DNA of 64,000 nt from Aphrocallistes beatrix (lineage: Eukaryota; Porifera; Hexactinellida; Sceptrulophora; Aphrocallistidae). Shown here piece after piece: positions 12,855 to 56,113 of the stretch. The notes below the pieces were generated by a model that was not told the DNA's origin, searched no databases, and worked only from the letters and a program-made list of their open reading frames with translations. The translations under genes and the position numbers were made by a program. Location: the NCBI GenBank assembly GCA_963281255.1, contig OY725497.1, positions 4,146,968 through 4,210,967 of the forward strand, in the 5' to 3' direction. How positions within the stretch are numbered: position 1 is the first letter of the stretch; every line of letters starts with the position of its first letter.

Positions 12855-13000
12855 GAGCATGCTCTCGACCTAAGAGCATGCTCTCGAACCTAAAGAGCAT
12901 GCTCTCGACCTAAAGAGCATGCTCTCGAACTAAAGAGCATGCTCTCGAACCTAAAGAGCATGCTCTCGACCTAAGAGCTAAGAGCATGCTCTCGACCTAA
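12855..13000. repeat. ~20-bp tandem repeat containing the palindrome GAGCATGCTC
   Basis: Seven copies of gagcatgctc, each followed by tcga(a)cctaa(a), run at a period of about 18-21 bp from 12855 to 13000. Unit length varies by an A or C, and one copy is partly duplicated (ctaagagctaag). The array lies about 190 bp upstream of the amidase gene start. Confidence 0.92.
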
Positions 13001-15102: not shown

Positions 15103-15411
15103 AGTCTGCCTCGGTAGAATTATTTCTAGTTTATAGTCAGCTACAAGAGAATATATGCGTATGATATGTCTTGTATATGATATCTTTAGATATTTAGAAG
15201 TGTGTCATAGTTGTAAATTAACGAGAATGCTTAAAATGCCACGATTTTCTCCAATTGTCGTTCTTAGGGTGAGTAGGGTAAGATAAATATTTGATATGGG
15301 ATATCTAGCATTTTAAATCTGATTCACTTCCAGATTTCAGAAATAGAATTTCTATTTCTCATTTGACATACTATTAATAACTATAGCTTTAGTAGACTTG
15401 TAATAGTTAGC

Positions 15412-24813: not shown

Positions 24814-27800
24814 ATGTTATTGCCCCTCTTCTGCTCCCTCTTCTTCCTTTATTTCACAACTGCCACGCAAAATTCCACTTTATGCTCTCTCTGTTCGTAT
24901 CATGGGTCTTGCTCTAACCTCACGTGTGTCTGTCTCCCCAACTGGTCTGGACCTTCTTGTGCTAACTTCACTGATCCATGCAACGACACAACTTGTGCAC
25001 ATAGCGCTAATTGTACAGCTACGAACTTTCCCGTTCTATCTCACACCTCGACTCTCTCTCTAACGAATAGGACCAACCTCACTACGTACACCCCAACTAG
25101 AAATGATACTCAGTACCTCCTCAACCTGAACTGGGATACTTCACATCAGTGCAACTGCCCTTCTAACTACACTGGAATGAGGTAAAGTTATCTTAAAATT
25201 ATTTTTAATAAAGATTTCACAAGTTTTCTATAATTTCATATTTTAAAATTATTGTAAAATTATATTACAATTTTATGTTACAATTATTTTAAAATAGCTA
25301 TTTTAGACCGGTACTATCTAGTGGGATATATGAATGTCTCACTATTACTTGCTTCCCTCTCTCCCTCCCATCTGTCATATAATCGGTCTCATATCTGGCA
25401 CGAGTGCAGATGGCATTGACACGTGTTTGGTTGAGTTCTCAAAGCACCCAGATGAGACCATATCCCTCGACAACATTCATTTCAAGGTCTTAGCTAACCG
25501 TACCTACGCCTACCCCTCCTCGCTCAAACACAGACTCCTCACTATTGGCGAGGAGGGCAATGCGAGACAACTGTGCAGTATTAACTTTGAGTTGGGAAGA
25601 CACTTCGCTGAAGCAGTGACGCGTATTCTTAGTGATCCGGACACCCCGCCGGTAGTCCTAACAGCTGTAGGCTCACACGGACAGACGGTGTATCACGACC
25701 CTCCCACCAGGGATGGAAATGGCCAGAAATTCGGGAGTACTCTTCAGTTGGGAGAGTCCTCTTGTATCGCTAACGCCTGTGGCGTACTCACTGTGAGTGA
25801 TTTCCGCTATTCAGACATGTCCGTAGGCGGGCAAGGTGCGCCCCTCATGCCTATATTAGACCGGATGTTACTACAGCGGTCTTACGCTAGGACAGGTAGA
25901 CTCGCTGCTATGCTTAACATCGGTGGCATCTCTAACATTTCTCTGATGCACTCTGGTTGTAAAGGAGAGACAGAGATGCTAGCATTTGACTGTGGACCAG
26001 GGAATGTGCTATTAGACGCTGCCTGTAGGAGATATTTCAACAAGGAGTATGACGAGAATGGAGATATAGCCAAGAGTGGATGTATCGACTCAGAACTTCT
26101 AAGTTTCCTCATCAAACACCCATACTTGAATATGCCACCTCCCAAGTCCACAGGGAGAGAGGCATTCGGAGAGGAATACTTCTCCTCACTTCTCTCTCAA
26201 GTGGCAGAGAACGGGGTTATTCCTGCTGACGTCATCACCACTCTCACTCACTTCACATCTCACTGCATCTTGTCTGCTATCAGCAAATTCGTGGCGCCTA
26301 AACTAGATGCTACAAGCGGTACTGCCCTCAGATCTGTGTTTGTCAGTGGAGGAGGAGTTCACAATACTTTTCTATTGAATCTTTTGAATAAGAACAGCAG
26401 CTGTTTAGTGTTTGAGAGCAGTGCCATTCTGGGAATAGATCCGGATGGAAAAGAGGCGTTATGTTTCGCAATGTTGGCTTATTTAACCCTCAGCGGTTGT
26501 GCTGGGAATTTCCCTTCTGCCACTGGAGCGGAAAAGAAAGTAATATTGGGAAAAATAGCTTTTCCTCCACCATAATTTTCTAATTAGTTTACATAATGTA
26601 TCACTGATAAGATATCTCGTAAAAGCGACTACAAACCATATTACTTTTGTATATTGATAACTTCTTGACATAACAGCTGTTTCATTATGCGATTTAGACT
26701 TTATTAGTGAATTAGATGTTCAAATCAATTAATGAATAAACCATTACCCCAAGCTGTTTCATATAGGTGTGAGTTTGAGATTTGTGACTCCAGCCACTGC
26801 TACAACCACGGTCTGTGTCTACATCATCCCATAACTAACCTAACGCGCTGTCTGTGCTATCCCCAGTACAGCGGAGATAATTGTGAGAACTGTCTCCAGT
26901 GCCCAGAAGACGCTTCTCACCCATGCTCCTCCGTCTCCTGCACTCACGGGCACTGCGAAGTGACACCTGCCAATCACATCTGCCACTGCTCTATCGGGTT
27001 CCAGGGAAGCGACTGTGATGAGGATATCGACGAATGTTCACACCCTTCCATCTGTAACAATGGACGGTGTGCGAACACGATTGGAAGCTACTACTGTAAC
27101 TGCGCAAGTACGTACAAACTGCTTCCTAGCTACTAGCTCAATTAATCGAGTCTTACTGATGAACTCTCTCCTAGATACTGGCTTCAGTGGGAAGAATTGT
27201 GAAGAAGAGATCTTCGAGTGCGATCTTTCTCCCTGCAAGAACGGTGCTTCGTGCAGTGAGGTCCCGGGATCAGGCTACAGCTGTCTGTGTACGAGCGGCT
27301 GGTCTGGCTACACCTGTCAGGTGCATGCTTGTCAGCAGGCTGGTACGTGCGTACACGGGACGTGTAAGCGAAGTCCAGCTCCGTACACATGTGACTGCTC
27401 TCCTGGGTATGAGGGAGTCAGCTGTGACCAGGATATCGATGAGTGTTTAGGAGTGACGTGTCAGAATGGAGGAGTTTGTCAGGATGGATTGAATAGCTAT
27501 CTGTGTGATTGTAAGCTGGGATATACTGGAATACAGTGAGTTAGAATATCTTCCTAGCACAGTAGAGGTATAAATGCTTTAGTGTACTAATCTCTTTGTA
27601 GCTGTCAGAATCGAATTGACTACTGCGCATCAGAACCTTGTGCGCACGGCTCATGTGCCTCTCTGCTGGGTGGATACACCTGTGGCTGTGATCCAGGCTA
27701 TACTGGACTCGTTTGTGATACAAATATCAATGATTGCGATCCCAATCCATGTCTGAATGGTACTTGTCTGGACGGAGAGCACAATTACACTTGCCAATGC

Positions 27801-30800
27801 TACCCCGGTTACACTGGTAAGCTGATATAGTTACTGCGCAATTGAATCCGTTCTATATTTATCTCACTTTACCTTGTAAGGCATAACATGTGATAGGAAC
27901 ATTGATGACTGTGTCGGGAATCCCTGCGGAGTTCGTGGCGTATGCAGTGACCTCCTCAACACTTTCACTTGCACTTGTAACCTTGGGTACACGGGACAAC
28001 TGTAAGTGAGCTCATTCAGATTGTTTAGATTAATTTGTTCAATAATGCTAGAAAACAATTACTTGAATAGTATCAAAAAACTTAATTAATGAATTCTTCC
28101 GTTAATTACGTAGTCGGATAGACTAATCTAATTCGTATCTCATCTTTTCTAGGTGTGGAACCTCAATTAACTACTGTCTGCAAATAAACTGCTCAGATCA
28201 TGGCACATGCATTCAATCTAACTGTACTAATGCCTGCAATAGTTCCTCCGACTTCTTCCAATGTTCCTGTTACCCTGGTTATACGGGGCTTCTCTGTGGA
28301 GATGACATAGACTACTGCGAGAATCATGACTGTAGATATGGGGAGTGCGTTGAGGAGAGCGCTGGTTATAATTGTGTGTGTAATGAAGGGTTTTCAGGCG
28401 ACTTCTGCACTGTTAATGACAGCAGTTGTATTGATAACACGTGTGAGAATGGCAGCTGTATTGAAGTATTTCCTGAATATAGATGTGAATGTCTACCAGG
28501 ATTCGAAGGTGAGTCTTGTCAAAGTAAGATCGATCTTTGCGAGAATGTGACTTGCCTAAATGGGAGCTGCATAGAGAATGCGGGCGGTTCGTATTGTGTC
28601 TGTGAAGCTGGCTTCTACGGGGATATGTGTGAGAGTGTAGACCTGTGTTATGGACAGCCTTGTCTAAATGGAGGTAACTGTACACTCTCTAATGCAAGCT
28701 CTTATTTGTGTTTATGTCCAGCTAACTACTCAGGCTCAGTCTGTGAAACCTCCATACACTCTTGCGCATACGTTGAGTGTTCTAACAATGTGTCATGCAC
28801 TGATGTGCATGGCATAGCAGTCTGTATCTGTCCTCCTAGATATACTGGTCAGCTGTGCCAGAGTGAAGTAGAGCATTGCCAATCTGAACCCTGTCAGAAC
28901 AACGGAACATGTTTAGAAGCTTCAGACGGATTCAATTGTACATGTTCCAGTCAGTATGCTGGCGAGAGGTGTGAACTCGAATTAACACCTTGTTCTCAGC
29001 ACTTTTGTACGTCTGATCCTAATCTTGTGTGTGTAGATTCGAATATTCCCAATAATTCCTGTTACTGCCCCGATAATAAGAGAATATTTTCCTGTATTGA
29101 GCCCGGGAATTCTTGTAATAATTCCCTCTGCAAGAATAACGGAGTTTGTGGAGCTTTCAAGAACGGTACAATATGTATATGTACTGGTAATTATGCAGGA
29201 GAGAATTGTGAAGTTCTAAGTGATCCTTGTTTGTCCAATCCTTGCAATGACGGATATTGTGTAGCCACCAACCAGACCGATTATGAATGTACATGCTCCT
29301 CACCTTATACAGGAAAGTTTTGTGAATCCATGGTTATTCCTTGCGAAGAGCTGAATATTTGTTCTCTGAATGGAACTAAGTTGTGCATTCAGGATCCAAT
29401 CGGACATACCTGCATCTGTAATCCAGCTTTCTCTGGTGCTACTTGCTCCAATCTCTTCGAGTGCCCCACTCGGTTCTGCTCCCCGCCTTTACTCTGTGCT
29501 GTTGTAAATGGATCATTTGGATGTGTTTTCAACTCCAGTATTCATCCCCAGCCTCCTAATGTCACTACACACCCACAGGACACTACAACAACTGCCACCA
29601 ATTCAACCTCAACTAATTCTCCTACCAACTTCTCTCCTATTTCTACTAACACTCCTACTTCATTTTCTTCCTGCATTCCTCAACCTTGCTTGCATGGTAA
29701 CTGCACCTCTATTGGTGAGAGGGAGTATTCTTGCAAATGTTCTTCTGGATTCACTGGGACAGATTGTGATACAATGATTGACTACTGCTCACAGGTTAAT
29801 TTGTGTTTATTTATTTAAACGGAATCTAAACCAATTATTTTAAATTTCTTGTAACTTTTTAGGTTTTCTGTGCAAATGGAGGAACTTGCAAAAATGAAAG
29901 CGACTCTGCTAAATGTCACTGCTTACCTGCTTTTGCTGGTAGCTTATGTTTGTTCGAGTTGACAGAACCAGAACATATTTTTGACAAGTGCCCTCACAAG
30001 GAATGTAGACACGTTTTCAACAATGGAAAATGCAATGCATCATGTGCAGAACAAGAGGATTGCTTGTTTGATGGAATTGATTGCTTGGAAAGACCTGTCT
30101 GTCATAACACAGACTGTGAATCTTCCTTCGGGAATAGTTTATGTAACGAAGAGTGTAACAAAAAAGAATGCATTTTCGATGGAGGAGACTGCTTCCCAGA
30201 TTATCTGTCTGGTGACCGTCAGTTCGCCTCTGGAAATCTGTTGATAACTGTTGAATCTACAAAATCAATCTTCCCCTTCCACGTTCACGTTCTTCCCCTC
30301 ATCCTCTACCGCATCAGCTCCATACTGCATACCATGGTCGTACTGGATTATGTGAGTGAGGTAGAGCATACGTCTTCTCGAGTAAGGAGACAGCTGGCCA
30401 ATGAGTACGAGTACATCTACAAAATCAGAAGTAGGATCGATAACTCCCTTTGTGAAAATTATTGCTTTGGAACTGCAGCAAAAACGGCTGAGTTTTTGAA
30501 CGAATATTTTGTGAATTCTTCTATTGACACGGATCAATTTCGAGTTTTGCAGATTACCAGCACTGAGGTTGCTCCCTCTCAAGTAGCTGTTTGGCAGATA
30601 GCTACTGGAGTGTCACTCGTAGCGATCATAATTTTCGTTTTTGTTGTCATCGGAGGTGTTATTATTCGCAAGAAACGCCCCAGGGGCATCTATTTCCCTA
30701 GAAGGACATCTGTCCATGGCAATAACGAGAGAGCTGCTCTCGTGGAGTCTAGAAGTGAGGAAGAATCAGTTGCAGTCTCTCAATACCTTGGCTCGAACAA

Positions 30801-32385
30801 TCCCGCGAAACGAAGTAGGTTAGATCGCACTGCCACTGATAACAAATCTGTCATACCTCCCTCGTGTAGCCCTCCTCCTTATGAGGCGTTCCAGCTGTCC
30901 CAGGTGTATCTACCGAATGAAGTGTTCCCTCCGATCAACGCCAAATGTTCATATTCCAGAGCCGAACCTAGAGCAAGTATCGAGCTCGACCTTCTCCTGG
31001 TAGACCCCTCTCCTCCCACTGAGATTTTTAACCCAAGCCTAACCTCTCTCAACTCTAAAGCAGCAGGCGGTTACACCCCGCTAAGCTTGGCTGTCATTAT
31101 TGACAATCCAACCATGCGCAATGACCTCCCCTTCCCTGCCCTTCCTGACTGCCAGCATAGGATCATGAGCGGAATGCTGGGCGTGGAGGACCTTATAAAG
31201 ATGGGAGCTGATGCTAATCTAGCAAATGACGAGGGCGCTACTCCACTTCATCTGGCTGCTAAGTACAGACGCCCTGAAATAGCCGCCAGTTTAATTACTG
31301 CCGGGGCTCTGGTAAACAAGCAGGACAAACTGGGTCGCTCTCCTTTGCATTCAGCGGTTGCTTCAGATGCGAGGGACGTGCTCCAGATCCTCCTATCCAC
31401 TCGCAACGTGAATATCGATATTCAAAGTCATGACGGGTCCACACCACTGATGATGTGCGTGACGCACATTAACAACGAACTGCTAAGAGACCTGCTGCAG
31501 GTCCATGCCAGCGTAGATCTAGCAGACAAGCAGGGATGCACTGCGCTACATTGGGCAGCGAGCGTCAATAACGTCGTAGCTCTCCAAGCCCTGATTCCCT
31601 GCGTAATGGACATTGATTGCCAAGATTCCAGCGGGCAAACTGCACTCTTTCTCGCCGCAAAGGAAGGGAATCTAGATTGTGCCAGGATTCTACTTCAGAA
31701 GCATGCGGACCCGCATATTACTGATACTCTGTGCCAGGACCCGATACACGTTGCAAACCATAACTTGCATAAAGATATCGAACAGTTGTTGAGACATAGT
31801 TCATTTTCTGGTGATAATTCAGAAATATTGAACTATGATTCTAACTCGAATTGTGCTATCAGTAAATGTAAAGGGAAGTCTGGCTCTAGAAGTAAGCATG
31901 AACCCAAGAGAAAGAGAAAAGTGGCCACTTCTACTCCAAAGGTACACCCATCTCCCTTACGGTCTGTTTTGCCGAAATGTTTAAATATTAAACAGGAGAT
32001 TTCATCTCCCTCCTCCCAACTCTGCACCCCTTCCCCTCTACACCCCCTCGCTGCTGAGTACCCTACAGACCCACAAGAATACCAATCAAATAACCCAATT
32101 CTCCACCTGTCTCATTCACACCCGTTTCCCACTCCGCCCAACTTGCACAATGAAGGTCCGAAACAAATGCAAATTGATACGCTAGTTACAGAGACGTGTT
32201 ATGCTTCTAACTTTCCTTCTCCCGAATCATCCAGCACTACCTCTCCAACTGATAGCAAAATACATTCTCTAAAACGCCAGGCGAACAAGCCCATGCCTAA
32301 TGCCAGCTACCCGAATCACTTGCTGGATGTTAAGCCGTCCTCAGCAAAGCAGACTGAAGACCCCGCCAGTCCTCTCTGGGATTGA
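24814..32385 (+). CDS. NOTCH: Notch receptor
   Basis: The exons are 24814-25181, 26767-27107, 27175-27535, 27602-27816, 27881-28001, 28153-29794 and 29863-32385. They sum to 1,857 codons and all phases close. A signal peptide (about 1-18) precedes some 24-25 EGF repeats, several of them calcium-binding (DIDEC). A Thr/Ser/Pro-rich spacer interrupts the EGF array near 29530-29680. Two Lin-12/Notch repeats (residues about 1059-1126) follow, where most Notch receptors have three. Then come a furin-like site RVRR (about 1189-1192), a transmembrane helix (about 1261-1284, with GGVIIRKKR at the gamma-secretase end), an ankyrin domain (about 1417-1660), the basic nuclear signal KHEPKRKRK and a Ser/Thr/Pro-rich tail. 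Intron 1 (1,585 bp) hosts the AnmK gene. Confidence 0.95.
25334..26575 (+). CDS. anmK: Anhydro-N-acetylmuramic acid kinase, nested in Notch intron 1
   Basis: This is a 413-aa intronless ORF of the AnmK family, which in bacteria opens and phosphorylates anhydro-N-acetylmuramic acid during peptidoglycan recycling. Motifs in order: GLISGTSADGID (nucleotide loop), GSHGQTVYHDPP, DFRYSDMSVGGQGAPLMP (catalytic Asp region), NIGGISN, DCGPGN, KSTGREAFG and FVSGGGVHN. All key blocks are intact. It lies wholly inside a Notch intron (25182-26766) on the same strand, with AT-rich flanks. The family is essentially bacterial with scattered eukaryotic members, so I infer an ancient transfer. The host probably does not make murein, so the substrate may be dietary or symbiont cell-wall sugar. 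The neighbouring Notch exons and splice phases argue against contamination. Confidence 0.93.
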   Translation: MSHYYLLPSLPPICHIIGLISGTSADGIDTCLVEFSKHPDETISLDNIHFKVLANRTYAYPSSLKHRLLTIGEEGNARQLCSINFELGRHFAEAVTRILSDPDTPPVVLTAVGSHGQTVYHDPPTRDGNGQKFGSTLQLGESSCIANACGVLTVSDFRYSDMSVGGQGAPLMPILDRMLLQRSYARTGRLAAMLNIGGISNISLMHSGCKGETEMLAFDCGPGNVLLDAACRRYFNKEYDENGDIAKSGCIDSELLSFLIKHPYLNMPPPKSTGREAFGEEYFSSLLSQVAENGVIPADVITTLTHFTSHCILSAISKFVAPKLDATSGTALRSVFVSGGGVHNTFLLNLLNKNSSCLVFESSAILGIDPDGKEALCFAMLAYLTLSGCAGNFPSATGAEKKVILGKIAFPPP

Positions 32386-39185: not shown

Positions 39186-39342
39186 CTAAAGATACACCTA
39201 ACTTGTAGTATCGGATAGCTATTTGCATTCACTTTATGGAGACAAAATATTCATTTGCCACAGCGTAGCTTATTCAAGATCGTTTGATGTTGTTCAGTTG
39301 TCCAATTAGTAATTTGACACTATTCAAATTTGATTGTTTAAT

Positions 39343-41513
39343 ATGAATACTTTGAACTCTCTGTGCTGTTTAGTGATGGCTCAGCCCCAAGAACTGTACC
39401 ATCAGTTTTCTAGATATTCCAATGAGAGAGAGGAAGTTGCTCCATCGTTCCAAGTATCTCCACTTCTCAGAGACTTACTCTGCTATCTCGTGATACTACT
39501 CGTGTCCGCAGGTGTCTACACTAACTCATTGGATGCAGGGTTTGTATTTGACGATCACAGGGCCATCCTCACCAACAAAGACCTCGAGACAGACGGAGAC
39601 AGGACGGTATGGGACCTCTTTTTGAACGACTTCTGGGGTGGATCCATGTCCCGCACTCAGAGCCATAAGTCGTACCGTCCCCTGACCGTGCTGACGTACA
39701 GGTACCTCAACTACTGGCTCTGGGAACGGAGGCCGTTCTCCTACCACGCCGTGAACGTCCTCTTACACAGCGCCGTCTCTCTCACGGTCTACACTCTCTC
39801 CCGCCTGCTCGGGATGGAGCGGACCGCCTGTCTCCTCGGGGCGCTCCTCTTCTCCGTCCACTCAGTGCACACGGAGGCTGTGGCCAACACGGTGGGGCGG
39901 GCTGAAATACTGTCCGCGCTCTTCTACATGCTCGCGACACTCGTGTACCTCCGCGGGATGCGGTCGAACCGCCACTACCGCACCACCTGCCTCTCTGTCC
40001 TGCTGTCTGCCTGTGCCATGCTGTCTAAAGAGCAAGGCATAACTTCCGTCGGCGTGTGCCTTGTAGCCGACACTCTCGCACACTGGGACCCACTGATGTC
40101 CACGCTGCAACAAGTTCTGCAGTACATCGGCGCTACTAAGTTCGTGCAGAAGGAGAGATTTGGAACTGCTGCAGTTCTCTACAGTTTCATTCTCAGATGT
40201 GCCATCATGGTAGTTAGTGGCTGTGGACTGATGCTCTTCAGACTGAAGATGAACCAGGGCTCCCAGCCAATATTCAACCAGACAGAGCTCCGTCTCCAGT
40301 TCCACCCGGACAGACAAGTCCGCATGATGAGTATGGGGTACCTGTACGCTTTCAACTACTGGCTGCTCCTCTGTCCCTACCGGCTCTGCTGCGATTGGAC
40401 ACACCCATCCATCCCGCCGCTCCTATCTCTATCCGACCCGAGGAACATCTGCCTACCTCTGCTGTGCTTAGGGGTCTTTTTTCTTGTGATTAAACTTCTC
40501 ACTTCGAGAGAAGACAGGTTCTCTCTCGGGATGGCTATCTCCCTCACTATAATCCCATTCGTTCCTGCGATGGGAATATTCTTTAGAATCGGGTTTATCG
40601 TGGCGGAGAGAGTTCTTTATCTGCCAAGCATTGGACACTGTGTTCTTGTTGCTTATGGAGTCTCTAAGTTACAAAGGTAGAAGACAAGTTAAGAATCTTT
40701 TCGAGATTTAAAATATTATGTTATTCCTCATCTAGGAAGCTACAATATTCTCAATTTCGGCTGTTCCCGTACATACTCTGTCTTCTCCTCATCTTAACTC
40801 AGGGATACCGGACCTGGATACGGAACGAAGATTGGATGAGCGATCTCAACTTGTACAAAGCCGGGGTTAAGCTGAATCCCGCCAACCCGAAAATGCATAA
40901 CAATTATGGAATGGAGCTTAAGAACAGAGGAATTAACCAAGAGGCAGAGAAGCACTACTTCAAAGCGCTGGAGATTGAGCCAGATTATGCTGACACTTAT
41001 TTCAACCTCGGAAACCTGTATGCTGACTTAGGTAGGAAGTATGCGGATAATGCTTGTTTACAACATAATTTATATTAAAACAATTTAGGAATGAATGAAG
41101 ACGCTCTAAAGATGTTCATCAAGTCGGCGTCGTATGACCAAATGAGACCGAAGACGATGAACAACCTCGCCGCGATGTACATGAAGCTAGGCAGACACTC
41201 AGAAGCTGAGCGGGCTTTCCAGGAACAAATAGCAATGAATCCGCACCACAACATGGCGTACAACAACCTAGCGAGTCTGTACGGACAGATTGGGAAGTTG
41301 GATCTCGCGAAGAAATATTTCTTGAAAGCGCTCGAGATAGATCCGAATTACGCGGAGGCGTACTTCAACCTTGGAACGCTGTACTATCAGATGCAGGAAT
41401 TGGATGTGGCAGAGGAGCATTTTAGACGGTGTCTCACGATTAATCCTGGCCACAGAGGAGCGACCAATAATCTCAAAGTTGTCTTGTATGCTAAGAAGGA
41501 ACGCAAGAATTGA
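39343..41513 (+). CDS. TMTC-family protein O-mannosyltransferase (TPR)
   Basis: This is an ER multi-pass enzyme of the TMTC family, which O-mannosylates cadherins and similar proteins. The exons are 39343-40676, 40736-41031 and 41089-41513, giving 684 aa. After the first helix comes the catalytic-type motif FVFDDHRAILTNKD. Next are SYRPLTVLTYRYLNYWLW, FSVHSVHTEAVANTVGRAE and SKEQGIT, all TMTC hallmarks, followed by about ten membrane helices. The C-terminal third is a TPR array of about five repeats (DYADTYFNLGNLY, NYAEAYFNLGTLY). The first in-frame ATG is at 39343, with an alternative at 39376. Which of TMTC1-4 it matches is not decided. Confidence 0.9.
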
Positions 41514-42000: not shown

Positions 42001-45000
42001 TTAACTCGATTCGATTTGATTCGATTCTAGCTGGGAATCTTCTGTTAACTGTAGCTCCGTGTCCTCACTTGTTAGAGCACAACTTGGATTTTCTTGGTTT
42101 GGACAGATTTCTGGTTCGTTTGTCTCTGAAGCCAGCGTTAGGTCTGCTAACTGAGAAATATTGGATTCCGAAGCAGGAACGATATCCTCGCAGGACCGGA
42201 AACTCTCATAGCCATTTTCTCCTTCAAGAAAGAACCATAGTGATGACGAGGCTTGTAAAAAAGGCATCTTTAATACGTTCTCAGTCTGTTTGGTCAGCAT
42301 GTTGTGCAGCTCTATCATAAGGTCAATGTCCACCGTGCATCCTAGCTCGATTAGCCTCGCGAATAGACTGGCGTGTGACCACTTTATGAACTTAATCGGG
42401 CGTCGGTGAACCTTTGAGCGAGTTACAGTTTTGATGCTCATTGTGTCTTTGATATACGAGAGAATGTCTGTTCTCATAGATTCATCTGGGATCAGACTCA
42501 ACAGCTCATCCACTGAAGCCTGAATAATGAATGAGTGAAGTTAGGTATTTGTAATTTTTTATTCAATTCAGCATTTCGAATGCTAACTCACCATGGATAT
42601 AGCAGACTTCATTCCAGTTGCAAGTATATACTTCTTGATCAAAATATTTTGGTGATGCTTGATATGTGTAAATATTTTGACACGTCCTAAAGGTGTAACA
42701 AAGGTGTGCAAGGAAATTTCTTCTTCATTGAGTTCATTCAAGCGCTGGTTTATCATCTGACACATTCTTCCCATACACTGGTTAGGGTCTATCCCGTTCA
42801 CAACTACGTCACAGTACCGGATGAATCCATGCGTGTCCTCCGAGAAAGTGAAGCCTTGAGACTGCAGAATCCTTCCTTCACTTGAAAGCTCAGCGACCTA
42901 AAGAATCCGTGGCATTCTCATAAATTGAATTGAAGAAACGAATAAATAATTTGTTTTATTTTAAAAAATTAATAAAATTCGGAACTCACAATTTTCTGCA
43001 TTGGTAGGAGAGATTTGGGAATTTCATTTCTAGGCAAGAGAATCTTCAACGATTCGACATCAATCCAACCAAAAGTTGAAGTGGTTACCCTCCATAACCA
43101 GAACGGTAAGATGTCTGTGTTCTTGAGTGCTTTCCGCATATTCGTAATCACAAGCGGTTGGGGAGGAGGCGGGGATATCTGGGCCAGGTAGTAGGGGTAA
43201 TCCTGTGACAAGTCACAGAAGCTGGGGTCATTATCTGACCGCTCAGTGAAATATTCAAATAACCCTATATCGAAATATGATACGTACATTATTACAGCTA
43301 TACAGTTCTATTAGATTGATTGCTCCATCAACACAATGCTACTTTGTTGCATTATGCAGGATGGAAGGAACTTTCGGTTGCCAGAGTTGCTGTAAATTTG
43401 TGCATATGCAATGTATGATGACTCTATAATCAATGAAAAAATGAATTGAATTTTCATCATGACATTATAGGGATTTATTCACTTTAAATTCATTGTGGTG
43501 TGCCCAATCGATACACGATCGAACTTAAAGAAAACTGTTAAGAATATTGCTTACATTCGTCAAATTCCTCGGGTTTCGTCAGTAGAACAGCAAGAATTCC
43601 ATTAAAGCCAATCCAATTCGACTCCTTCACCATCCGCCACACTTCGAATGCATTCGCTCCCAGTGCCAGCAAGAGAATTATTAACCGCAAGTGTTTGTTC
43701 ATTTGAACCAGGACCATGGGTGCAATTTTCTCTGCAGTGAAATGTTCTATCTGTAGACTGAGGCACTGGATGTCTAGGTTAGTTGGGTCTCTGAACTCTA
43801 CTTTCAAGCTCTCGCACAGCTTAACTATTGTAAAGTAGTTCTTAGCATCGAATGCTCGTAACAAATCGGATGCCAGGACTACGCAGTGTGGAGTCGGTTT
43901 TTGCATAAGGTAGATATTGATAACATTTGTAAACTTCAAATTCTCTTTTGAAATTACTCGGATTGAAATGTCTTCAACTGTGACAGTTCGAATGAAGAAC
44001 TCTCTGTCCTTTCCTTCACCGGTGTTAACCAGAGCTGGGTACCACTTTTGCGGCCATCGTTCTGGCCTGTGTGCAAATAACTCGCGTATTTGATCAGGTT
44101 TCAATTTGCGAAGATAAGAAGCATCTCTGAGTAATTTCGTGTCAACGAAAGTACAGTGCTTAGAATTAGGAGGGAACTGAAATCCCTGTGAGGTGAGAAA
44201 TACGTGTTCGATTGAGTTGAGTTCTATTCTGCTACAGTTATCGTGATACCCCCTCTCCAATATATCAGGTGAGACTCCCAGAATGCTTGCAATCTATTGT
44301 TAATTCGTAATAACTAAAAGTTAACATTTTGATTCAATCGTGAATTTGAAACTGAATCCTTACTTGATCCACATTTACAGCCTCCGTATTGTCAATTAGT
44401 ATCCATTTCTTTATCCAATCAGAACGGTACCCCTTCTTACAGAGTGAGGTGAAGTCGTGGAGGTAGTGAGGATTGTAGCTGCTTAGCCGCTCCAGGTGTT
44501 GGAATATGTCCAATGCTACTGGACCAGGGATTCCAAGGTTGTAGAGCAAGGTCAGCTGCTGCAAATCGTCAACTCTTATCATTGTAAATGAGATTGTATT
44601 TGATTGGTTATCTACGTATATAGACACATTATATACACAATAAGTCGGGAAAATGCATTGCCAGGATTTCTAATTCAAACAAGTCATTTGATTTACTTGA
44701 AGCTTTACAATTTATTTTACGTGACTAACCAGCGAACTTTCGTCTGATTTTCTTGAATAGCATTAAGTTCCTCGTATCTAACAATTTGATCAGCGACACC
44801 TGCATCTCGACTGCCACTTCTTCTGCGATGTAATACATCTCATCAGAACCAGGGATCTTGTACACAGAACAGATGTGTCGGGATAGCACTTTACCGAGAA
44901 TACTCTCGGTTAACAGGAGTTTTGTATTATGCATACCTATGTCTAATTTCTCTTCAGTGAACATTGTTAGCGGAGCAGATTTCGATAATAAATCTGTCTT

Positions 45001-48000
45001 CTTATTGGAAATGATCTTTTTACATGCGAAATACATCAGCCAAACTTTGTGCTTCGGAACACCCATTCTTCTGAGAGCGATGAATAATTCTAAATCCTCG
45101 GTTGCTGGTAGCAGTAATGACACATTGCCTGAATTGGGGAAGCCCCTTGGACGATATATTCCCCCTCTCCCTAGCCCAATGTTGAGTTCCAGAGTTCTCA
45201 TTTGAACAAATTCTGCTATGTCCTCCACAATGAAGAATTTCTGGTTGATGTTAGGAACTGTGACAGTTTTAGGCAATGCTGTAGTGTTCTCTCGAATGTA
45301 GCTGTAGCTGTGTGGAACCTTGAACTTTATACGTTTACCATTTCTCCAAAAAGTACGGATGGTAAAATCCACATATTCGAACTCTCCTTCCTCAGTTTCA
45401 TAATCTTCATTATGAAAAGACTCCTTATTCGAAGTCTTTGTTCCAACGAGGATCAAACTCTTCGAATGACTTCTTCCCTGATCTGTCTCGCTTGGGACTA
45501 GGTATAGTGATACATCTTCAATTTCTTCCAGTGCTAGCTTGATACTCTGTAAATCCTCTCCTTTAACCTTCATATCGATAATGCCACCCACCACAGACAG
45601 AGGAACTAACAGCATCTTATTGACCAAAAGTTTCGCACCTTGCTCTGCTAGCTCAATGTAATCATCTACAGCGGATAGCGGGAAGAGGTGAGGATGGAGT
45701 CTGGTCTGCACGGTGCTGTAGGTCCAATTTAGGAAGTACGCCAGCTCGGACACGAGGATCCACTCTCCAGGCCTGCTTGCCAAGAGATAGTGCGCAGGAA
45801 GAGTTTTCAAACTAAATTTTATCTGAGCGGTTCCGGGACCCTTTTTTATAATCTTTTCGCTCTCATTTGATTTATTGAAACTTGATGATGATGATTTGGG
45901 TATTTTCGTCAGTGGACATCCTGCTGAGCTATCGCTCGGTCTTTTTATTCCTTTGTCAGGAGGAGCGGTCGGTTTAATGGTCAAGAGAATTCGTTTCTGT
46001 TGCGGTGGTGATAGTTTGATCATCTTATAGACATCTAACAACTTTTCATTGAAGAACCCAACTTCTCTGAGGTGTAGTAAGCTGTTCAGATGCTCTAGTT
46101 GGTACATCGTAGTGTGTTTCAAGTAATGAGGGACCCCGAAAGTGTGTAGCTGATTGAAATAACGTTTGAAAGTAGCTTGACTCTCAACATCAGTGCTGGT
46201 GTTGGATAGCGAGGGTATGGAATAGTTGTTTAGGATTGCTTGCAAGCGGGTTAACGGGATGTTAGTGAAGCGAGCCAGATCATGCAACAAGATGAAGCTA
46301 ACCTTCCCGTTCTCCTCGCTATCTATATGGTAGACCATAATCTGCTCTCTAGACTTGAATAGGAAGTGGTCATCAAATATCTTAAGAATGATTGTCTTTT
46401 CACACGCGGCATCTCGAATCGTGTGAATCTTGAAGTCAACTGAGTATGTGTCTTTGTAACTGGATTTATTTTGTTTGGTGCCTTTTTTGTGGTAGATATT
46501 CGACGTTAGAGCGATTGTTAACTGATTCTCATTCGTTGTTTGAATTAAGTTGAAAGTTTCTATAAGTTTTACGTTATAAAATCCGATTTTTCGAAGTAGT
46601 AGCAGTTGCTCCAGTTCATCATAAGGATATATTGTAACGTTCCTGTACTTGGGCACTCCTTGAGACTTCAGTTCTAAATTGTATTGCTCAAACTCGCTTC
46701 TTAGCTTCCCAGTGGGAGCTGTGCTAGAGTAGTAGGTTATTCCGTAGCTCAGCAGGAACAGGAACAGGCTAGACTGTGGGATGTGGGTGTATTCAGCTAG
46801 ATGGTGCGATATCACTACTCCTTTACCACTCACTGTGTATACTTTGATCGGAATGTGCGGTTTTCTTAGCTTTTCTGAATCCATTATTTTAAGTTTTATC
46901 TTTTTGTTGGAAAATTGTAGACTCAAAACTTTACAGTCGACAGTTAGGAGCTGGAAAACATTGTACTTGAACATTTTCACAGGGTCCACTTGGGTCTTCG
47001 TCAATTGGATAGAAAGATCTTTAAGTTGGAGTTCAGTTTTAGGGGGCGATTTAGGGCGATTTATCTTCCTATTTTCCTTTGTCCTTGACTTGAAGTTTAT
47101 TGTCTCCTTCTTTGCTTTCATGTCCAGGATCCACTTGACCTTGTTGTGATCGATCATTCGAATTGGTTTATTCGTGTATTCTTCAAGATTAAATCCCTGA
47201 TGGGATAGAATTGTTCTGTCCTTGTCGGACTTGACATCATAAATGTACACTTGGTATGTGGTTTCCAATACCTCCATCGGAATACTGGCATACTCCCCAA
47301 GATCCTCTAGCATTATGTGTTTCTCTTTCATATTCGGGATAATCCACAGCCTCGGCGCATCACCCTTGTTCGTTACACTTAAAGTTGAAATATTTAAATC
47401 GTGTGACGGGGGGTGATTAATACTTTCAAGAATTTGATTAACATGGGAAAAAGCTAAGAACTTGGTTTCATGAATCATTTGTACTCGCTGATCTTGCGCG
47501 AATACGGACTCAATCTGCGTCTCACTCCACCCGAGATAGGTACCTAGATCGCCGAGGGAGACGAATTGTTCTTCTGTTTCAGGAGCAAATTGTCTTTGAA
47601 TCGAGTTATCTCTCCTCTCCTCATCCTCGCTGGATATGGTAATAGGATCAGTCCTATTGGCGTCACTGCTCGAGTCTGGAGTTTGCATCTTTTGGAAAAA
47701 TCTGTTTATTAACATTTTCCCACGAACCAGTCCTGTTTTAGAAACATATTCCAACTCGTTCAATCCCTAAGGAATAGCGATATAATCTCAATATTAGTAC
47801 CAGTAACGTAGATAGATACATTGATGCGAAAGAACTTACTATTTCGAGCTGTTCGTTGTATAGACACACCATGGATTCAAGGTAGCGCGGGTTCTTTTGA
47901 ATTTTGTTTACTATGCTCTCCCACTCCTTTATCCAGAACAACCCCTGGTTTTCGTCCAGCTGATAAACCTTGAGCTTCATAACTAGCATCATATCTTGTA

Positions 48001-51000
48001 AAGTAACGTTCATCTTATTCATCAGTTCACGGATAATGAAGTAAGTGTTATTCCGATCATCTACGAATTGGAGAAAATTACTCCATTTATTGCAAGAACC
48101 TTTCAGTATTCCTTGAGGAAAGCCCTGCCTGAAAATATCTGCTATCAGCTTATTTCCTTTGTTGTTCTCCCCCATCGATTTAAGTTCTTTGATCTCTTGA
48201 TATTGAATTAAAAAGAAGGGGTATCTATGGTTTTCATGGACTTTGTAAACCTGTAATAATATACATGCAATAATGTGTAAAGCTATTCTATAGTTTTTAT
48301 TAAACTACAATGCCTACCTTAAAGAGGTGGTCTTTTTCAGTTTGTCCAGCTCTTATTTGTCTTAGTGAGTGGAATAAAACTTCAAAAGTATCCTCACACC
48401 AACCCAAGAAAATGCACAGTTCACGCTTGATCACATATTGCTTGAACATGAGTGATGGAAAGTGGTAGGATTTGAGTTTACAATCTGAGGTTGATTTCAA
48501 CTTAATTGAATTGAACATATTTGTAATTGTGGGAGTGCCTTGTGTTGGGGTCTGTGTTGGTGTACTCTGTGTTGGCGTATTCTGCGAGGGAGATATTGGA
48601 GATGTGGGGTATAAAAATACTGGTTCTTGGTTGGAATCTGAATATGTACTTTTGAGCTTCTGATTTATAAGATTCTCCACCTAGTGGATATACATACGTA
48701 TATACTTATGACTTTGACAAAATGAGTTTAAGTAGCTACCTCTTTGAAGGGGACGAGATGGGTTATAGGAACGCCTATTGGTGGCATGCCTTGGACACAC
48801 AGTGCTTGGATGTCTTTTTCTCCAGCGATAACGATAGTGAAGCACTGGAATAATCGAGTATAGGAAATCTCTAAGAAGTCTGCAGTGTGGAGAGCGAGTG
48901 TGAACTGTCCCTTCTTCCCTGTAAGTCCGTATTGCTTTGGGACTGTTCTTACAATCCGCATACTCTCTCCAGTTTGTTCCTTGTACAGCAGTTGTACATA
49001 CTTTGCCATTTCTTCACTATCTCGAAATGCCTGTTAAAAAATACTTAAATCCGTTACGTTAAAGATATATTGACCTGCGTCCAGTCCACAGGGTTATGAA
49101 CAAATGAATGAAGATATTGAGCTGGGATCTTATCGTTACGATACAACACGAATTACTTGTACCAGTATTTTATTAGGTGCATCTGTTGCAAGTTAGTAAT
49201 GAACCTGTTTAATAAGATATGAAGTGTAGGGTGGTTACCTGAGATTTGGGCACATAGACACTGAGGAAAGTGTGGATAGTCTGCAGGACAGAATGTGCCA
49301 TTTCGGTTAGTGACGCGTATGAGTTATTCTTCAAGTTTAATTTAACATCTGTTAATGTAGGAAAACTCTTTTCATTCAGAGGCGGCTTCAGTCCTGCGGG
49401 CGGGAAAAGGAATGTAAAGAGCAATACGCGGGAGTTGACATCCCGGTAGTTCTCAAGTGCTTGAAAGAAATTGTTGAGTTGTTGCTTCTTGCTCCATTTA
49501 TTGTTATTCAAATTGTTTTCTTCTTCTTTTGTTTTGCCGCTTACTGAGGTTAGATCAACTAGGTGAAGAATGTGTTCATAAAATCAGATAAATGTGTAGT
49601 ACAGTTAGTTGTTAGTGCACCTACCCACGTCATCTTCTTTAACTAGCTCTTTTACCATGTTGGTCATTAACTGTCTGAGTTTGAGCGCGTCTCTTCCGAC
49701 GAAGGATCGCAGTTGGTGCAGTTTAATATTGTTATCTAGCATCAACTCCAGATCTTTAACCAAATCTTTCAGTGAAGCGTACCAACAAATTTTAATTTTC
49801 AGAGCTATGGTTCTCATGTCGATAGGCTGTCTTAATCTCCTAAAAATAGATCCGTGAGCTAACGATTACTCTGAAGTTTAGATTTTAGCTAAATCATAGT
49901 TTTGCACTACTACAATACTACATACACATTTTCATCTTTGTTGGCTGTGTGCTCCAGGAAGTGACTACAGAGGTGGTGTCCCTCTGAGTCCTTCTGAGAG
50001 GCGATGTAGTTGTAGAGAGCGAACTGCTTGGCGAGATCTCCCTCCACGCTGACCAGGGGCGGAGGCTGGAGCACTTCTAAGTGTTGTGGGATCTTGAAGC
50101 GGACTCCTTGAGTTCTCTTGGAGATATCAGTGCCAAAAAACGATGAATTACTAACACTGCTGACACTGGTAGCACTGCTAATGCTGCTAATAGTTGATAT
50201 GGGAATAGGATCGGGGAGCTGGAGTGTAGACTGTTTTGTGAATGAAGTAAATGGCGAGAGCATGTGGATTGGAGGCTGAGACACGACGATCTAAAAAGTT
50301 CGGTGTAAATCTTTTGTTAATTTGTGTTACTAGTTTTGAGAGGGATGTTCTCACCTGTCGACTCTTCTCTGCTTGATTGATGAACTGCGGAGTGGATGGA
50401 CTGCTCGTGTTATTGAAGGAAGCAGAGTTTCTAAAATCTTGAAGGTTCCTGATCAACAGTCGACTTTTATTCCTTCGAGTGTTCCTCAAGATGCTCCTGA
50501 TGCGCTTACGAACGTCATGATACTGCTCTGGGTACATAACTGATGCCTGTCGTAAATTTAAGTTATCGAGATAGTGTTGTTGTTTTGTTTTTTTATACTT
50601 AAATTCATCCTAGTCTAACCTGTTTTATAACCATTTCCAGGTTTTCTTTCTTCTGCGATGTAATGGGTGTGTCCTTATCCAAGTATTTCTCAACTAAGAA
50701 ACGCATATAATTCTCAAATTCCCCTCTAGGCTTATTACTTTTCTGTTTCTTTAACGCAGTAGTCATCGTGTACCCCTCTTCTGATTCCTCAGATCTGACC
50801 TGTATCGACTCGGGCGCAGAGGATGTGGGGATATGTTTCGTCGGTTCTGTGATGGGAGTGGAAGCTGTGGGTTGGAACTGTGGAAACTCAGTCTGGAAGT
50901 TGTTGGAGATTATTGTGGTAGACAGTAAGTTGAGTCCTGTAGCCAGCTTCGCTTCTCTTTTCTCCTGAATAAAAGAACAGAATCAACATGAATAGAAACT

Positions 51001-52181
51001 CAATCCTGTTAATAGAACGAAAATACGTACATCGTCGCTTAGAATAACAATAGGTGAGTGAGTTGTTGAAGAAATCGGATCTTGAATAATTGTTTTATTT
51101 TTAACAATTTTCTTTCTCAATTTCAGAGGAGTGATCGGTTTTGAAGGTACGTGTGTGACAGTAGTTGCGTATAAAGGATATAGCACTCTCCCGAGCTCTT
51201 TGTCTACCGCCAAACAACCAACGACCTCGGAGTAGAAAATCCGTTCCAGTCTGCTTAAACTATTCAGGGTGCGATACAATTTTAACAGTTGTAATTTCTT
51301 TGTCATGAGAGTAAATACTTTGTTCATATCCATAGAGAGTTGCATGAAATTGGTGTAGCCGTCTCGATCACTCCTCGCTTTTATCGGGATGAATTTAGAC
51401 ATGACCCAACCTTCCCCCAAATGGTTTGCGATCTTTCGCATTATGCACTCTCCCTCATTGTCCACAGCAGATTGTATCTATAACATTATAGATTTAAATA
51501 ACAGACAAAAAAGTAGTTGCTACATCAGTTCAGACAACATTAGCATGATCTGTAAAATGCTTATACTGATAACCAGTACTATTAGTCTATACAAAGTACT
51601 GTGGAATCATCTGAGGATTTTTAATTGTAAAAGGACGAGTATGAAAACAAGTATTGATTAAATGATTAGTTGACACTTTGATAGATTAATGAATCTTCCT
51701 TATTTGATAAAGTAATTACCTTCAATATGATTTTCTTTACTGCTGCATTGAATAAGCTGCCATTGCTTTCAATCATACAACCTGTAACTATCCCGTTGTC
51801 CTTAGAATCAACACTACTTTTTTTCTGTGGAGAAGTGCTGGGCGATTTCGTTAGGTATCTGATGTTAACTTTCGCTTGGGTTGGAACGAATGAGAGTTGA
51901 TCCGGAGGTACCCGCGTGATCGGAAACGGGCGTATTGGGGTTTGAATACTTGGTGTACAGATACTATTCAGATTCACATAATTGTGCTCTTTTAGAATAA
52001 TCTTAGGCAAATCCTTCTTAGGTAAATCCATCTTAGGTAAATCCTTAGGTTTCTTTGGAGTCAATTTTATTTTTTCTCTTTTGAATATCTTTTTCGTTCG
52101 TTTCTTTCGCATACAAAGTTTGCTTGCAAGTTGTTTCGGCGGAAGTTTCACATGCTCGATATCAATCGTCAGGCGTTTCAT
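42001..52181 (-). CDS. Giant repeat protein with degenerate bromodomain-like segments, unknown family
   Basis: I place 17 exons: 52181-51720, 51477-51031, 50964-50620, 50546-50355, 50290-49926, 49839-49625, 49558-49239, 49128-49075, 49030-48740, 48680-48318, 48250-47840, 47766-44730, 44611-44364, 44293-43555, 43264-42990, 42897-42592 and 42519-42001. They sum to 8,589 nt, or 2,863 codons, with every phase consistent. Residues about 1-150 are Lys/Pro-rich. About 565-672 (KDSEGHHLCSHF, RQPIDMRTIALKI, DLVKDLELML) and about 700-800 read as bromodomains like those of polybromo, but the acetyl-lysine Asn is lost (His or Val instead). From about 970 to 2270 two short motifs recur. One is [FVI]xxx[DE]LAx[YF]xxI; the other is LxxLLxLRxxGFxNxKL. 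The C-terminus is acidic. I do not recognise the family; a nuclear, chromatin-associated role is only inferred. Confidence 0.72.
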
Positions 52182-53377
52182 GTTGGTAATACGTGTAATT
52201 AACAAATTTTTAACTATTTATGAGAAAAAATATCGTTCTCGCTTTCCTTCTTTTCTACTATTGAAGGCCCTATTTCAAGTAAATATGGGTTAATTTCAAT
52301 CATATTACTATATCGTACTGAGACTATTTATACAATGTGGCCAATATAGATTTTAAGACTTTTGGTTTATCTATAATTGTAGAATCCATAGTTACTAGTA
52401 TCTAGTTACTCTAATTCGATGTAGGATTAATATCTCACATCTTCTATCTGATATTAATAGTGCAGCAATTGAATCTGCGATTTCACGGAGTTTTTATAAA
52501 AGTTTAAGTTATTTACATTTTGTTATAAAAGTATATTAACAAGCGAACTTTATTGAGGACAAGTTGCAATTAAACTCGTGTGTACTGTAATTCAGTGGAA
52601 AGTCATTCCGTTAGTGTTGTGCGACCTGATCATCCTAACAGCCAATGCTGGTCGCACTACAGTTCAACTTAATCTCAGTTACTGAACCTTTTTTTCCTGG
52701 TCCCCAGGTGGTTCGGGTTATCATGTTGAACTGTGGTTGTGATTAATTATTGTAGCTGTATTGGGTAGCAGGTAGCGAGCTGTCAAGTTTGCGTGTTTTC
52801 CGATTGATTTTCAGTAACCACTAATTGACTATTTTTGTCGAAATTAGAAGATGCATTCAATTTAATGACCTGTCATAAATCAGCACATTTATTGATTAGC
52901 TTTACAATATTATAGATTCAATTTTGTTTACTTATTTGTAGTTAATACATATCTAAAATAAAAATATGTTTTTGCTTTTATTGACTAAATACTACAGCAT
53001 TTCTCTGAGTTCACTTGTTTTGTATACATAATTGTAAATCACAACTGTGTTTGCGAACAGAGTGATTTATAATCACATCGTCTACAAACTCAGGACAGGA
53101 AACTCGTAGATCGGAACAATGATGAATCAAATAATACGTTATTCTTTGCATACGTAGTAAACTCAAGTGGGGCAGCAATAGCTAGCTGCTACATAAAATG
53201 TTTGTTATAGACAGTTCGTATTGATTAATAATTTGAATAATTATTTTTACATTTCTATCCACTCCCTTGCACTCTAATGATCCTCAGTCCTTTAATTAAT
53301 AATGTTATAATATGCGGACACACTCAATCACTAAAGTTTAGGTCTTACACTGTGCTGAACAACAGAACTTTCAATGT
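52182..53377. promoter_or_regulatory. Divergent intergenic region between the giant gene and LIG1
   Basis: The two flanking genes point away from each other, so this 1.2 kb must hold both promoters. It is AT-rich apart from the foldback segment at 52619-52734. I see no clear TATA box or other firm core element. Confidence 0.5.
52619..52734 (+). ncRNA. Candidate structured RNA or foldback
   Basis: Several nested stems can be read. GTGCGACC (52619-52626) pairs with GGTCGCAC (52650-52657). ACAGTTCAAC (52659-52668) pairs with GTTGAACTGT (52725-52734). Inside the second stem GAACC pairs with GGTTC, and CCTGG-TCC-CCAGG forms a hairpin. This is more pairing than I see elsewhere in the spacers. It could be a small non-coding RNA or an old transposon fragment. 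I recognise no known RNA family, and the strand is arbitrary. Confidence 0.3.
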
Positions 53378-56113
53378 ATGTTTTGCCTTCGAGGCATTAT
53401 TCTGACAGCTGAACTATTCACACAACCCAGTCACTTGCCACTGTATTACTGCACTCGTCGCTCAATGTCGTCAGCCAGCATAAAATCTTTTTTCAAACCT
53501 CTGAACCCGCCAGTGTCTCCTCCAGCTCCAGGAGACAGGCGCTCTGACAAACCTTCTAAACCCGATCCCCTCCCCGTCCCCAAATCTCCCAATTTGGAGT
53601 TGGGTGCCTCTCCCATCCTGTCTGGTAGCGTGTGTAAAGGCGCCAAGGAGCTCAGTGCGGACACCCCTATCCTGAGGGGGAGGAAGCGGAAGTCTAGGGC
53701 TAGGTACCTGGATAGTGATTCTGAGGAGGATATCGCTGAGACTCAAACAATCAAAATTTCAGAAAGAAAGCTAGCTAAAGTTAGAGTTGATCTTATCAAA
53801 CGAGAAAAGGAAACCGAAAAGTCTAAAGCTTTTGAAGGATTCAAAAGTCCTGACAATCCCTTAGCTATGGTCACGAGTCCCATGAGTACGGCGGTCACTC
53901 CTAGCCCCAAACTCACTCCCGCCATGAGCAAAGGCATGAAAAAACTGAAGATCAGTGGAGGGGGGGCGGTACCGAGTAATAATGGGGGAGAAACAGGACA
54001 GAATATCGTCACCCCAGACCTTCCTAAAAGTGAGAATGCGATGGATACTTGTCTAGGAGGGCTGGACTTAGTGACCGAGTCTCCTGTTCCCAAAGAGGAA
54101 GCGTGCAATCCTGATTCGAAACCTATCCTCTCTGCCTCCACAGCTCCCAAGCCCGCCCTTGTCTCGGAGTCTGACTACGCCCCCGATCAGCAGCGGTACC
54201 ATCCTGTCAACAGCGCCTGCTGGGACACAGGGACACCTGTTCCCTACCTCGCGCTAGCTCGCACCTTCCTGGCTATTGAGAGCACCTCGTCCCGTCTCCG
54301 CATCCAGACTATCCTCTGTAACTACCTCCGCTCTGTGCTAGCCCTCTCCTCGACGGAGGAGCTACTGTGCTCCGTGTACCTTACCCTCAACAGACTCGGC
54401 CCCGCCTGGAGTGGGGAGGAGCTTGGGGTGGGAGAAGGGGCTCTGATCCGCTCGCTCGTACAGTCAACTGGTCGGACTCAGAAAGCGATCAAGGCACAGC
54501 TGGCAGAGGTGGGAGACATCGGAATAGTGGCCGAGTCCAGCCGCTGCACTCAGAAGATGATGTTCAAGCCTGCGCCTCTCACCGTGAAGGCTGTCTTCTC
54601 CAAACTGCAGGAGGTAGCACGCTGCACTGGGGTGTCTTCCCAGCAGAAGAAAGTGGAGAAGATCTCCTCTCTGCTGGTCTCCTGTCGGGAGATGGAGGCT
54701 CGCTATCTCATTCGCGGTCTCACCGGCAAGCTCCGGATTCGCCTCCAGGAGCAGACCGTGCTCACCTCTCTAGCGCACGCCAGCCTCCACCACGAGACGG
54801 AGAGGGAGGAGAGGAATGTGAAGATGGAAGCTCTGAAGGAGAGGCTGGGCGAGGCGGAACAGAGACTCAAGAGTGCCTACTGTCAGCTGCCTGACTACGA
54901 GCGAGTCATCCCAGCTCTGCTCCGGCATGGACTGGAGGCTCTGTCTGACCATTGTTCTCTCACGCCGGGCATTCCCCTAAAACCCATGCTAGCCCAGCCC
55001 ACTAAAGGTCTGAGCGAAATATTCAAGAGAGTAGACCAAGCGGCCATCTCTTGCGAATACAAGTACGATGGGGAGAGGGCGCAAATTCACGTGATATCTC
55101 CCGGGGAAGTGCGGATATTCTCGCGCAATCAGGAGGAGATGACGGGCAGGTTTCCAGACGTGATAGAACGAATCCATCGCCATCTTGGTGAGAATGTGAC
55201 CTCGTGTGTCCTGGATTCTGAGGTGGTGGCGAGGGACACCGAGAAGAATCAGAAACTCCCCTTCCAGGTACTGACCACTAGGAAGCGCAAGGGGGTAAGT
55301 CTGGAGGAGATCAAGGTACAGGTGTGTGTGTTCGCGTTCGACCTTCTCTACCTGAACGGAGAAAGTCTGGTCCACGAGCCGTTCCGGAAACGGAGTGAGA
55401 TTCTGCGGAACAGCTTCAGACCGGTCGAGGGAGAATTCTCGTTCTCTGAGCGGAAGATCACGAACTGCACCGAGGAGATCCAGCAGTTCTTCGAAGGGTC
55501 CCTCAAGGACCAGTGCGAGGGTCTCATGATCAAGACTCTGGACCACAACGCCACCTACGAGATCAGCAAGCGCTCCTTCAACTGGCTCAAGCTGAAGAAG
55601 GACTACTTGGAGGGCACCGGCGACACCATGGACCTACTGGTGGTGGGGGCTTACCTCGGCACTGGGAAGCGCACGGGACACTACGGGGGCTTCCTGCTCT
55701 CCTGCTACGAGCCGGACAGCGAGGAGTACCAGGCCATCTGCAAGACAGGGACCGGCTTCTCTGAGGCCCAGTTGGAAGCTCAGTACAACCTCTTGAAGGA
55801 GCACGTCATCCCGCGGCCCAAGCCCTACTACAACCTGGGCACGTGTCCTGCCCCCGACGTGTGGTTCGATTCTAAGTACGTTTGGGAGGTGAAGGCGGCC
55901 GACCTGTCCCTCTCTCCCATCTACCCTGCCGCGATCGGACTCGCAGACCCGGAGAGAGGCATCTCACTTCGCTTCCCGAGGTTTGTTCGGACGCGAGAAG
56001 ACAAATCCCCTGAAGACGCCACCTCGGCTGAGCAGATAGCGCAGATGTACTTGAGTCAGCAGTCTGTGGCGGCTACCATTGGACCAGCCAAACACGGAGA
56101 CGATTACTACTGA
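53378..56113 (+). CDS. LIG1: DNA ligase 1 (ATP-dependent replicative ligase)
   Basis: This 911-aa intronless gene encodes the enzyme that seals Okazaki fragments and long-patch repair nicks. The N-terminus carries a PCNA-binding motif, SIKSFFKP (34-41), and a disordered Ser/Pro/Lys-rich region to about 265. Next comes the DNA-binding domain (YHPVNSACWDTG onward). The adenylation domain has active-site Lys562 in CEYKYDGERAQIH, and the OB domain has WLKLKKDYLEG and GAYLGTGKRTGHYGG. The C-terminus is SLRFPRFVRTREDK. Met1 precedes a basic, aromatic leader ending at Met30 (53465), which starts MSSASIKSFF as nuclear LIG1 does. The leader looks like a mitochondrial presequence, so two isoforms from two starts are likely. 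Confidence 0.96.
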   Translation: MFCLRGIILTAELFTQPSHLPLYYCTRRSMSSASIKSFFKPLNPPVSPPAPGDRRSDKPSKPDPLPVPKSPNLELGASPILSGSVCKGAKELSADTPILRGRKRKSRARYLDSDSEEDIAETQTIKISERKLAKVRVDLIKREKETEKSKAFEGFKSPDNPLAMVTSPMSTAVTPSPKLTPAMSKGMKKLKISGGGAVPSNNGGETGQNIVTPDLPKSENAMDTCLGGLDLVTESPVPKEEACNPDSKPILSASTAPKPALVSESDYAPDQQRYHPVNSACWDTGTPVPYLALARTFLAIESTSSRLRIQTILCNYLRSVLALSSTEELLCSVYLTLNRLGPAWSGEELGVGEGALIRSLVQSTGRTQKAIKAQLAEVGDIGIVAESSRCTQKMMFKPAPLTVKAVFSKLQEVARCTGVSSQQKKVEKISSLLVSCREMEARYLIRGLTGKLRIRLQEQTVLTSLAHASLHHETEREERNVKMEALKERLGEAEQRLKSAYCQLPDYERVIPALLRHGLEALSDHCSLTPGIPLKPMLAQPTKGLSEIFKRVDQAAISCEYKYDGERAQIHVISPGEVRIFSRNQEEMTGRFPDVIERIHRHLGENVTSCVLDSEVVARDTEKNQKLPFQVLTTRKRKGVSLEEIKVQVCVFAFDLLYLNGESLVHEPFRKRSEILRNSFRPVEGEFSFSERKITNCTEEIQQFFEGSLKDQCEGLMIKTLDHNATYEISKRSFNWLKLKKDYLEGTGDTMDLLVVGAYLGTGKRTGHYGGFLLSCYEPDSEEYQAICKTGTGFSEAQLEAQYNLLKEHVIPRPKPYYNLGTCPAPDVWFDSKYVWEVKAADLSLSPIYPAAIGLADPERGISLRFPRFVRTREDKSPEDATSAEQIAQMYLSQQSVAATIGPAKHGDDYY

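Follow-up and report, generated by a model that had tools for sequence, protein, structure and literature searches.

The stretch of the Aphrocallistes beatrix genome analyzed here (the window, 64,000 nucleotides; contig OY725497.1, forward-strand positions 4,146,968 to 4,210,967) carries, on the minus strand, an intact gene of 16 exons predicted from sequence, with the ATG at 52181 and the stop ending at 42001 (window coordinates). The encoded protein of about 2,844 residues would combine, in this order, a basic tail, a NOL4-type domain, a polybromo-like bromodomain pair, some ten winged helices and an acidic tail. It is fairly probable that this protein is a multivalent nuclear scaffold of a chromatin complex and docks other proteins through its winged helices and its worn bromodomains.

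An array of winged-helix-like units

Comparison of the predicted protein with itself detects one strong pair, residues 1401-1558 versus 1568-1733 (units R4 and R5), with 31% identity and an E-value of about 1e-15. Unit R7 is a third copy containing both parts common to R4 and R5. The second part recurs at ten places, but in the other seven units it stands alone and is visible only by profile, so that the series of two-part repeats described in an earlier note on this DNA is confined to R4, R5 and R7. The ten places were picked by eye, and each was scored against the profile of the other nine (leave-one-out); sliding-window profile scores, which are self-matches because the units are inside the profile, were not used. 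The P-values range from 2.9e-8 to 9e-4 for nine of the ten units and reach 0.023 for R8, with only 25 to 36 columns aligned for R0, R6, R7 and R8; R4 and R5 strongly support each other in this test. The second half of R8 matches the R4/R5/R7 profile with P 0.005. The units, all on the minus strand, are the following:

48654..48964, minus: winged-helix-like unit Rm1, residues 805-888 (P 2.7e-7, 75 columns)
48167..48485, minus: winged-helix-like unit R0, residues 945-1028 (P 9e-4, only 36 columns)
47407..47586, minus: winged-helix-like unit R2, short, residues 1198-1257 (P 2.6e-5, 50 columns)
47107..47364, minus: winged-helix-like unit R3, residues 1272-1357 (P 2.3e-5, 77 columns)
46498..46968, minus: full two-part unit R4, residues 1404-1560, beta hairpin, then winged helix 1438-1533 (P 2.9e-8, 78 columns)
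45970..46452, minus: full two-part unit R5, residues 1576-1736 (predicted fold)
45559..45810, minus: winged-helix-like unit R6, residues 1790-1873 (P 7.7e-5, 27 columns; shuffle z-score 5.3 to the sponge's own INI1)
45010..45384, minus: full two-part unit R7, residues 1932-2056 (P 3.3e-4, 25 columns)
44529..44886, minus: winged-helix-like unit R8, the weakest, residues 2098-2177 (P 0.023, 29 columns)
44096..44426, minus: winged-helix-like unit R9, residues 2212-2298 (P 3e-4, 65 columns)

The structural model predicted for R5, the one unit of the ten that was folded (predicted local distance difference test, pLDDT, 86.4; predicted template modelling score, pTM, 0.81), is a winged helix whose wing carries an extra helix, the fold that defines the INI1/SKI/SNO/DAC/BCOR superfamily, and its best matches among solved structures are SMARCB1, SKIL, SKI, BCOR and DACH. 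By profile, the remaining units appear to belong to the same superfamily, for a total of about ten. The additional beta hairpin is predicted in the R5 model and, judging by like sequence, may be present in R4 and R7 as well.

INI1 is reported to bind DNA (PMC4509781), and the units might form a multivalent DNA-binding array in which every winged helix contacts DNA like INI1, so that chromatin is coated or bridged. Compatible with this rather unlikely alternative, some units are basic, with seven Lys/Arg residues in the recognition stretch of R8 and four in that of R7, and with isoelectric points (pI) of 9.4 for R4 and 9.1 for Rm1; furthermore, the sponge's own INI1 domain is neutral (pI 6.8), so that overall charge is no argument against DNA binding. 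However, the recognition stretch contains 0 to 4 Lys/Arg in nine of the ten units, compared with six in the sponge's INI1; R2, R3 and R9 have four acidic residues there, and the conserved basic DNA-site residues of INI1 are mostly absent. The few basic recognition residues, together with the worn bromodomains, would favor protein docking, although the array may well combine it with binding to DNA.

Several other searches returned little. A loose first look through the same genome for a paralogue of the largest exon found that exon alone, and a phmmer search with it against PDB sequences gave no matches. The R5/R4/R7 alignment produced 118 pattern matches in viral contigs, none of which was confirmed. 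A Pfam scan of nine of the ten units (all but R2) yielded nothing above the cut-off; NCBIfam gave only sub-threshold matches. Weak matches to Pox_A51, FF, E1_4HB and ANAPC2 in the other Pfam scans of the protein were judged chance. A candidate additional two-part unit spotted by eye at about residues 2329-2475 scored 11.5 and was dropped.

Bromodomains, NOL4-type domain and termini

The remaining recognizable parts, again on the minus strand, are:

51720..52181, minus: basic Pro/Lys-rich N-terminus, residues 1-154 (pI 10.3, K+R 22.1%, P 10.4%)
50463..50718, minus: NOL4-type helical domain (PF23079, by Pfam), residues 386-446, across the exon 3/4 junction
49686..49978, minus: bromodomain a, residues 587-655 (PF00439, 28.1 bits, cut-off 21.7; PBRM1 match)
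48974..49517, minus: degenerate bromodomain b, residues about 690-801 (shuffle z-score and BD4-linker-BD5 alignment)
42004..42255, minus: acidic C-terminal tail, residues 2761-2844 (pI 4.1, D+E 21.4%)

Bromodomain b, scanned alone, remains under the PF00439 cut-off (E-value 0.11, 12.9 bits). In the alignments, the YN motif, whose conserved asparagine binds acetyl-lysine in bromodomains, is replaced by LH in a and by VY in b. The loss of acetyl-lysine residues from two bromodomain-like segments had been proposed in the earlier note, as had the basic Pro-rich N-terminus and the acidic tail, and all three are borne out here.

The best PDB-sequence match of the bromodomain region is human polybromo-1 (PBRM1); the E-value, as a sum over four stretches, is 2.9e-28. 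One of the alignments runs collinearly from bromodomain 4 (BD4) via the linker into BD5. In shuffle tests (500 shuffles), bromodomain b gives z-scores of 7.1 with PBRM1 BD5, 3.7 with BD4 and 2.0 with BRG1, and bromodomain a gives 12.3 with BRG1, 10.7 with PBRM1 BD4 and 8.8 with BD5. The tandem pair looks like BD4-BD5. INI1 is a SWI/SNF subunit, and PHF10, named as a subunit of PBAF, has the same winged helix (PMC4509781). These similarities are compatible with descent from a PBRM1 duplicate that lost BAH and HMG, gained the array and still functions in a PBAF-like remodelling complex. Such an origin is unlikely, given that bromodomain a fits BRG1 no less well than it fits PBRM1 BD4 and that a tree of 14 bromodomain rows does not settle the placement relative to polybromo. 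In contrast to PBRM1, only two bromodomains were found here, both without the acetyl-lysine asparagine. Pfam scans of residues 1-1001 and, one exon at a time, of exons 10-16 gave no BAH or HMG match at E-values up to 10; in these last exons, a domain interrupted by a junction may have escaped detection. In addition, the genome searched for comparison, that of the window itself (100.5 Mb, 28 contigs), has a polybromo-like gene elsewhere, at C1:239552-241493, in which two bromodomains (one found by Pfam, the second by phmmer) are followed by two BAH domains; the BAH matches in this genome, these two included, are outside the window's contig. Human polybromo has six bromodomains versus the two found in this C1 gene.

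The PF23079 match, which links the protein to the NOL4 family, has an E-value of 5.9e-7 in the scan of residues 1-1001 and of 1.8e-8 when the domain is scanned alone (35.2 bits, above the cut-off of 26; profile positions 9-66 of 95). A stronger NOL4-type match is present elsewhere in the genome (C16:1358546-1358725, 56 bits). A phmmer search with residues 155-482 gave one match, judged chance. Residues 155-385 and 2299-2760 have no assigned domain. Residues 1-154, by their composition, are probably disordered.

Superfamily placement, gene model and neighborhood

The N-terminal winged helix of INI1/SMARCB1 (also the SAY domain of PHF10) resembles the units in the predicted fold of R5, in the order of helices and strands, in a profile match over 78 columns and in providing the best structural rows. 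The units differ from it in being present in about ten copies, in a recognition helix that is mostly not basic, and in falling under the Pfam INI1 cut-off: PF21459 had no match in the nine units scanned, and a genome scan with it at E-values up to 10 picked out the sponge's own SMARCB1 gene alone. The two SNF5 repeats had no Pfam match either, within the scope given above for BAH and HMG. The SKI/SNO/DAC (DHD) and BCOR PUFD domains are of the same fold family and occupy rows 3 and 6 to 11 of the structure list, but here the domain forms a tandem array, and the other parts of those proteins did not appear in the Pfam scans. It is improbable that the units are some other, ordinary type of helix-turn-helix domain whose likeness to INI1/SKI is a common arrangement and no more, because helix-turn-helix sequence matches span only 26 to 33 residues with lower structure scores, and a single superfamily fills VIA-align rows 1 to 11 and Foldseek ranks 1 to 13 for the R5 model.

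Dynamic programming from the ATG at 52181 produced a gene model of 17 exons and 8,466 nucleotides, in which two exons were merged, since no stop interrupts the frame between them and 47839 offers a stronger donor. The final model has 16 exons, 8,535 nucleotides and 2,844 codons for amino acids, with one terminal stop, one frame, consistent phases and GT-AG borders at all 15 introns (59 to 290 bases). Glass sponges are reported to have a small genome and short introns (PMC10282587). The earlier note was correct in describing an intact gene in one frame, but its 17 exons, 8,589 nucleotides and 2,862 residues are superseded, the two proteins being 18 residues apart.

52181-51720, 51477-51031, 50964-50620, 50546-50355, 50290-49926, 49839-49625, 49558-49239, 49030-48740, minus: coding exons 1-8
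48680-48318, 48250-47840, 47766-44730, 44611-44364, 44293-43555, 43264-42990, 42897-42592, 42519-42001, minus: coding exons 9-16

The GC content (41.9% in exons versus 30.5% in introns), the 201 and 189 stops in the two other frames of the coding sequence, and the largest exon, open over 1,012 codons (the maximum among 500 letter shuffles is 195), argue for a real coding sequence. Alignments to homologous domains span six of the 15 predicted junctions: the NOL4-type domain (exons 3/4), the first bromodomain (5/6), polybromo BD4-BD5 (6/7), the second bromodomain (7/8), unit Rm1 (8/9) and unit R9 (12/13); the alignments of R0 and R8 stop short of their junctions. The other nine junctions, including 4/5 and 10/11, have no bridging domain, which leaves some room for two neighboring genes wrongly read as one; in view of the bridged junctions, the single frame, in which the phases agree and the introns have GT-AG borders, and the similar winged-helix units that flank junction 10/11 on both sides, this is very improbable.

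Downstream of the gene, a TMTC O-mannosyltransferase-like gene with tetratricopeptide repeats (39334-41513) ends about 0.5 kb from its stop, and on the other side a single long frame (53342-56113), divergent from it, encodes all three domains of an ATP-dependent DNA ligase. Elsewhere, the window contains a frame for a MYST-type histone acetyltransferase with a Tudor-knot and a MYST zinc finger (15367-16734); a near full-length match to anhydro-N-acetylmuramic acid kinase (25334-26575), a family known mainly from bacteria; and two long frames that together appear Notch-like, with EGF repeats followed by LNR and ankyrin repeats (28127-32385). About 65 copies of a 10-base palindrome, AAACATGTTT, with variants, are arrayed at 6288-6970, and palindrome-holding units form arrays at 10703-10765 and 12493-12576 (AGCGCATGCGCT) and at 12855-12978 (GAGCATGCTC). 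The mitochondrial cox1 on contig C28 (18.0 kb) has 11 in-frame TGA codons. Its residues 305, 306, 307, 309 and 310 are encoded by ATA, AAA, ATA, AGA and TGA; aligned to the motif IKIFSW at residues 305-310, these codons indicate that AGA is read as Ser, AAA as Lys, TGA as Trp and ATA probably as Ile, presumably the glass-sponge pattern.

A putative multivalent scaffold

In animals, the DHD/INI1 winged helix is found in SWI/SNF subunits, SKI-type co-repressors and BCOR, and its versions in SKI and BCOR serve as protein-docking surfaces. By analogy, the winged helices of the array, together with the worn bromodomains, would provide docking surfaces, and the basic N-terminus and the few basic units would anchor the protein on DNA or nucleosomes. 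What the data show are the domain matches and the fold predicted for R5; the gene model and the other units are supported at the sequence level, and the nuclear location, the scaffolding role and the partners of the protein are our inference.

The earlier note assigned the protein to no recognized family. At the level of domains this does not hold, given the bromodomain, NOL4 and PBRM1 matches and the R5 fold; for the whole architecture it does, in that none of the searches made returned a match. Among the papers listed by the literature searches, titles and abstract openings mention neither such a protein nor a tandem DHD array, a weak negative, and to our knowledge this module of co-repressors and remodellers is known only as a single copy. 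The chances seem about even that the protein represents a class of animal chromatin scaffold not described before, perhaps confined to glass sponges, in which some ten DHD/INI1-type winged helices are combined with a NOL4-type domain and with worn bromodomains of polybromo type, a single-copy module thus having been turned into a multivalent platform. If so, the DHD/INI1 fold would be usable as a repeat scaffold, and an early-branching animal would provide an example of the recombination of remodeller and co-repressor parts. Divergent members of the superfamily that curated sequence models overlook can be sought with the profile of the units and with the R5 model.
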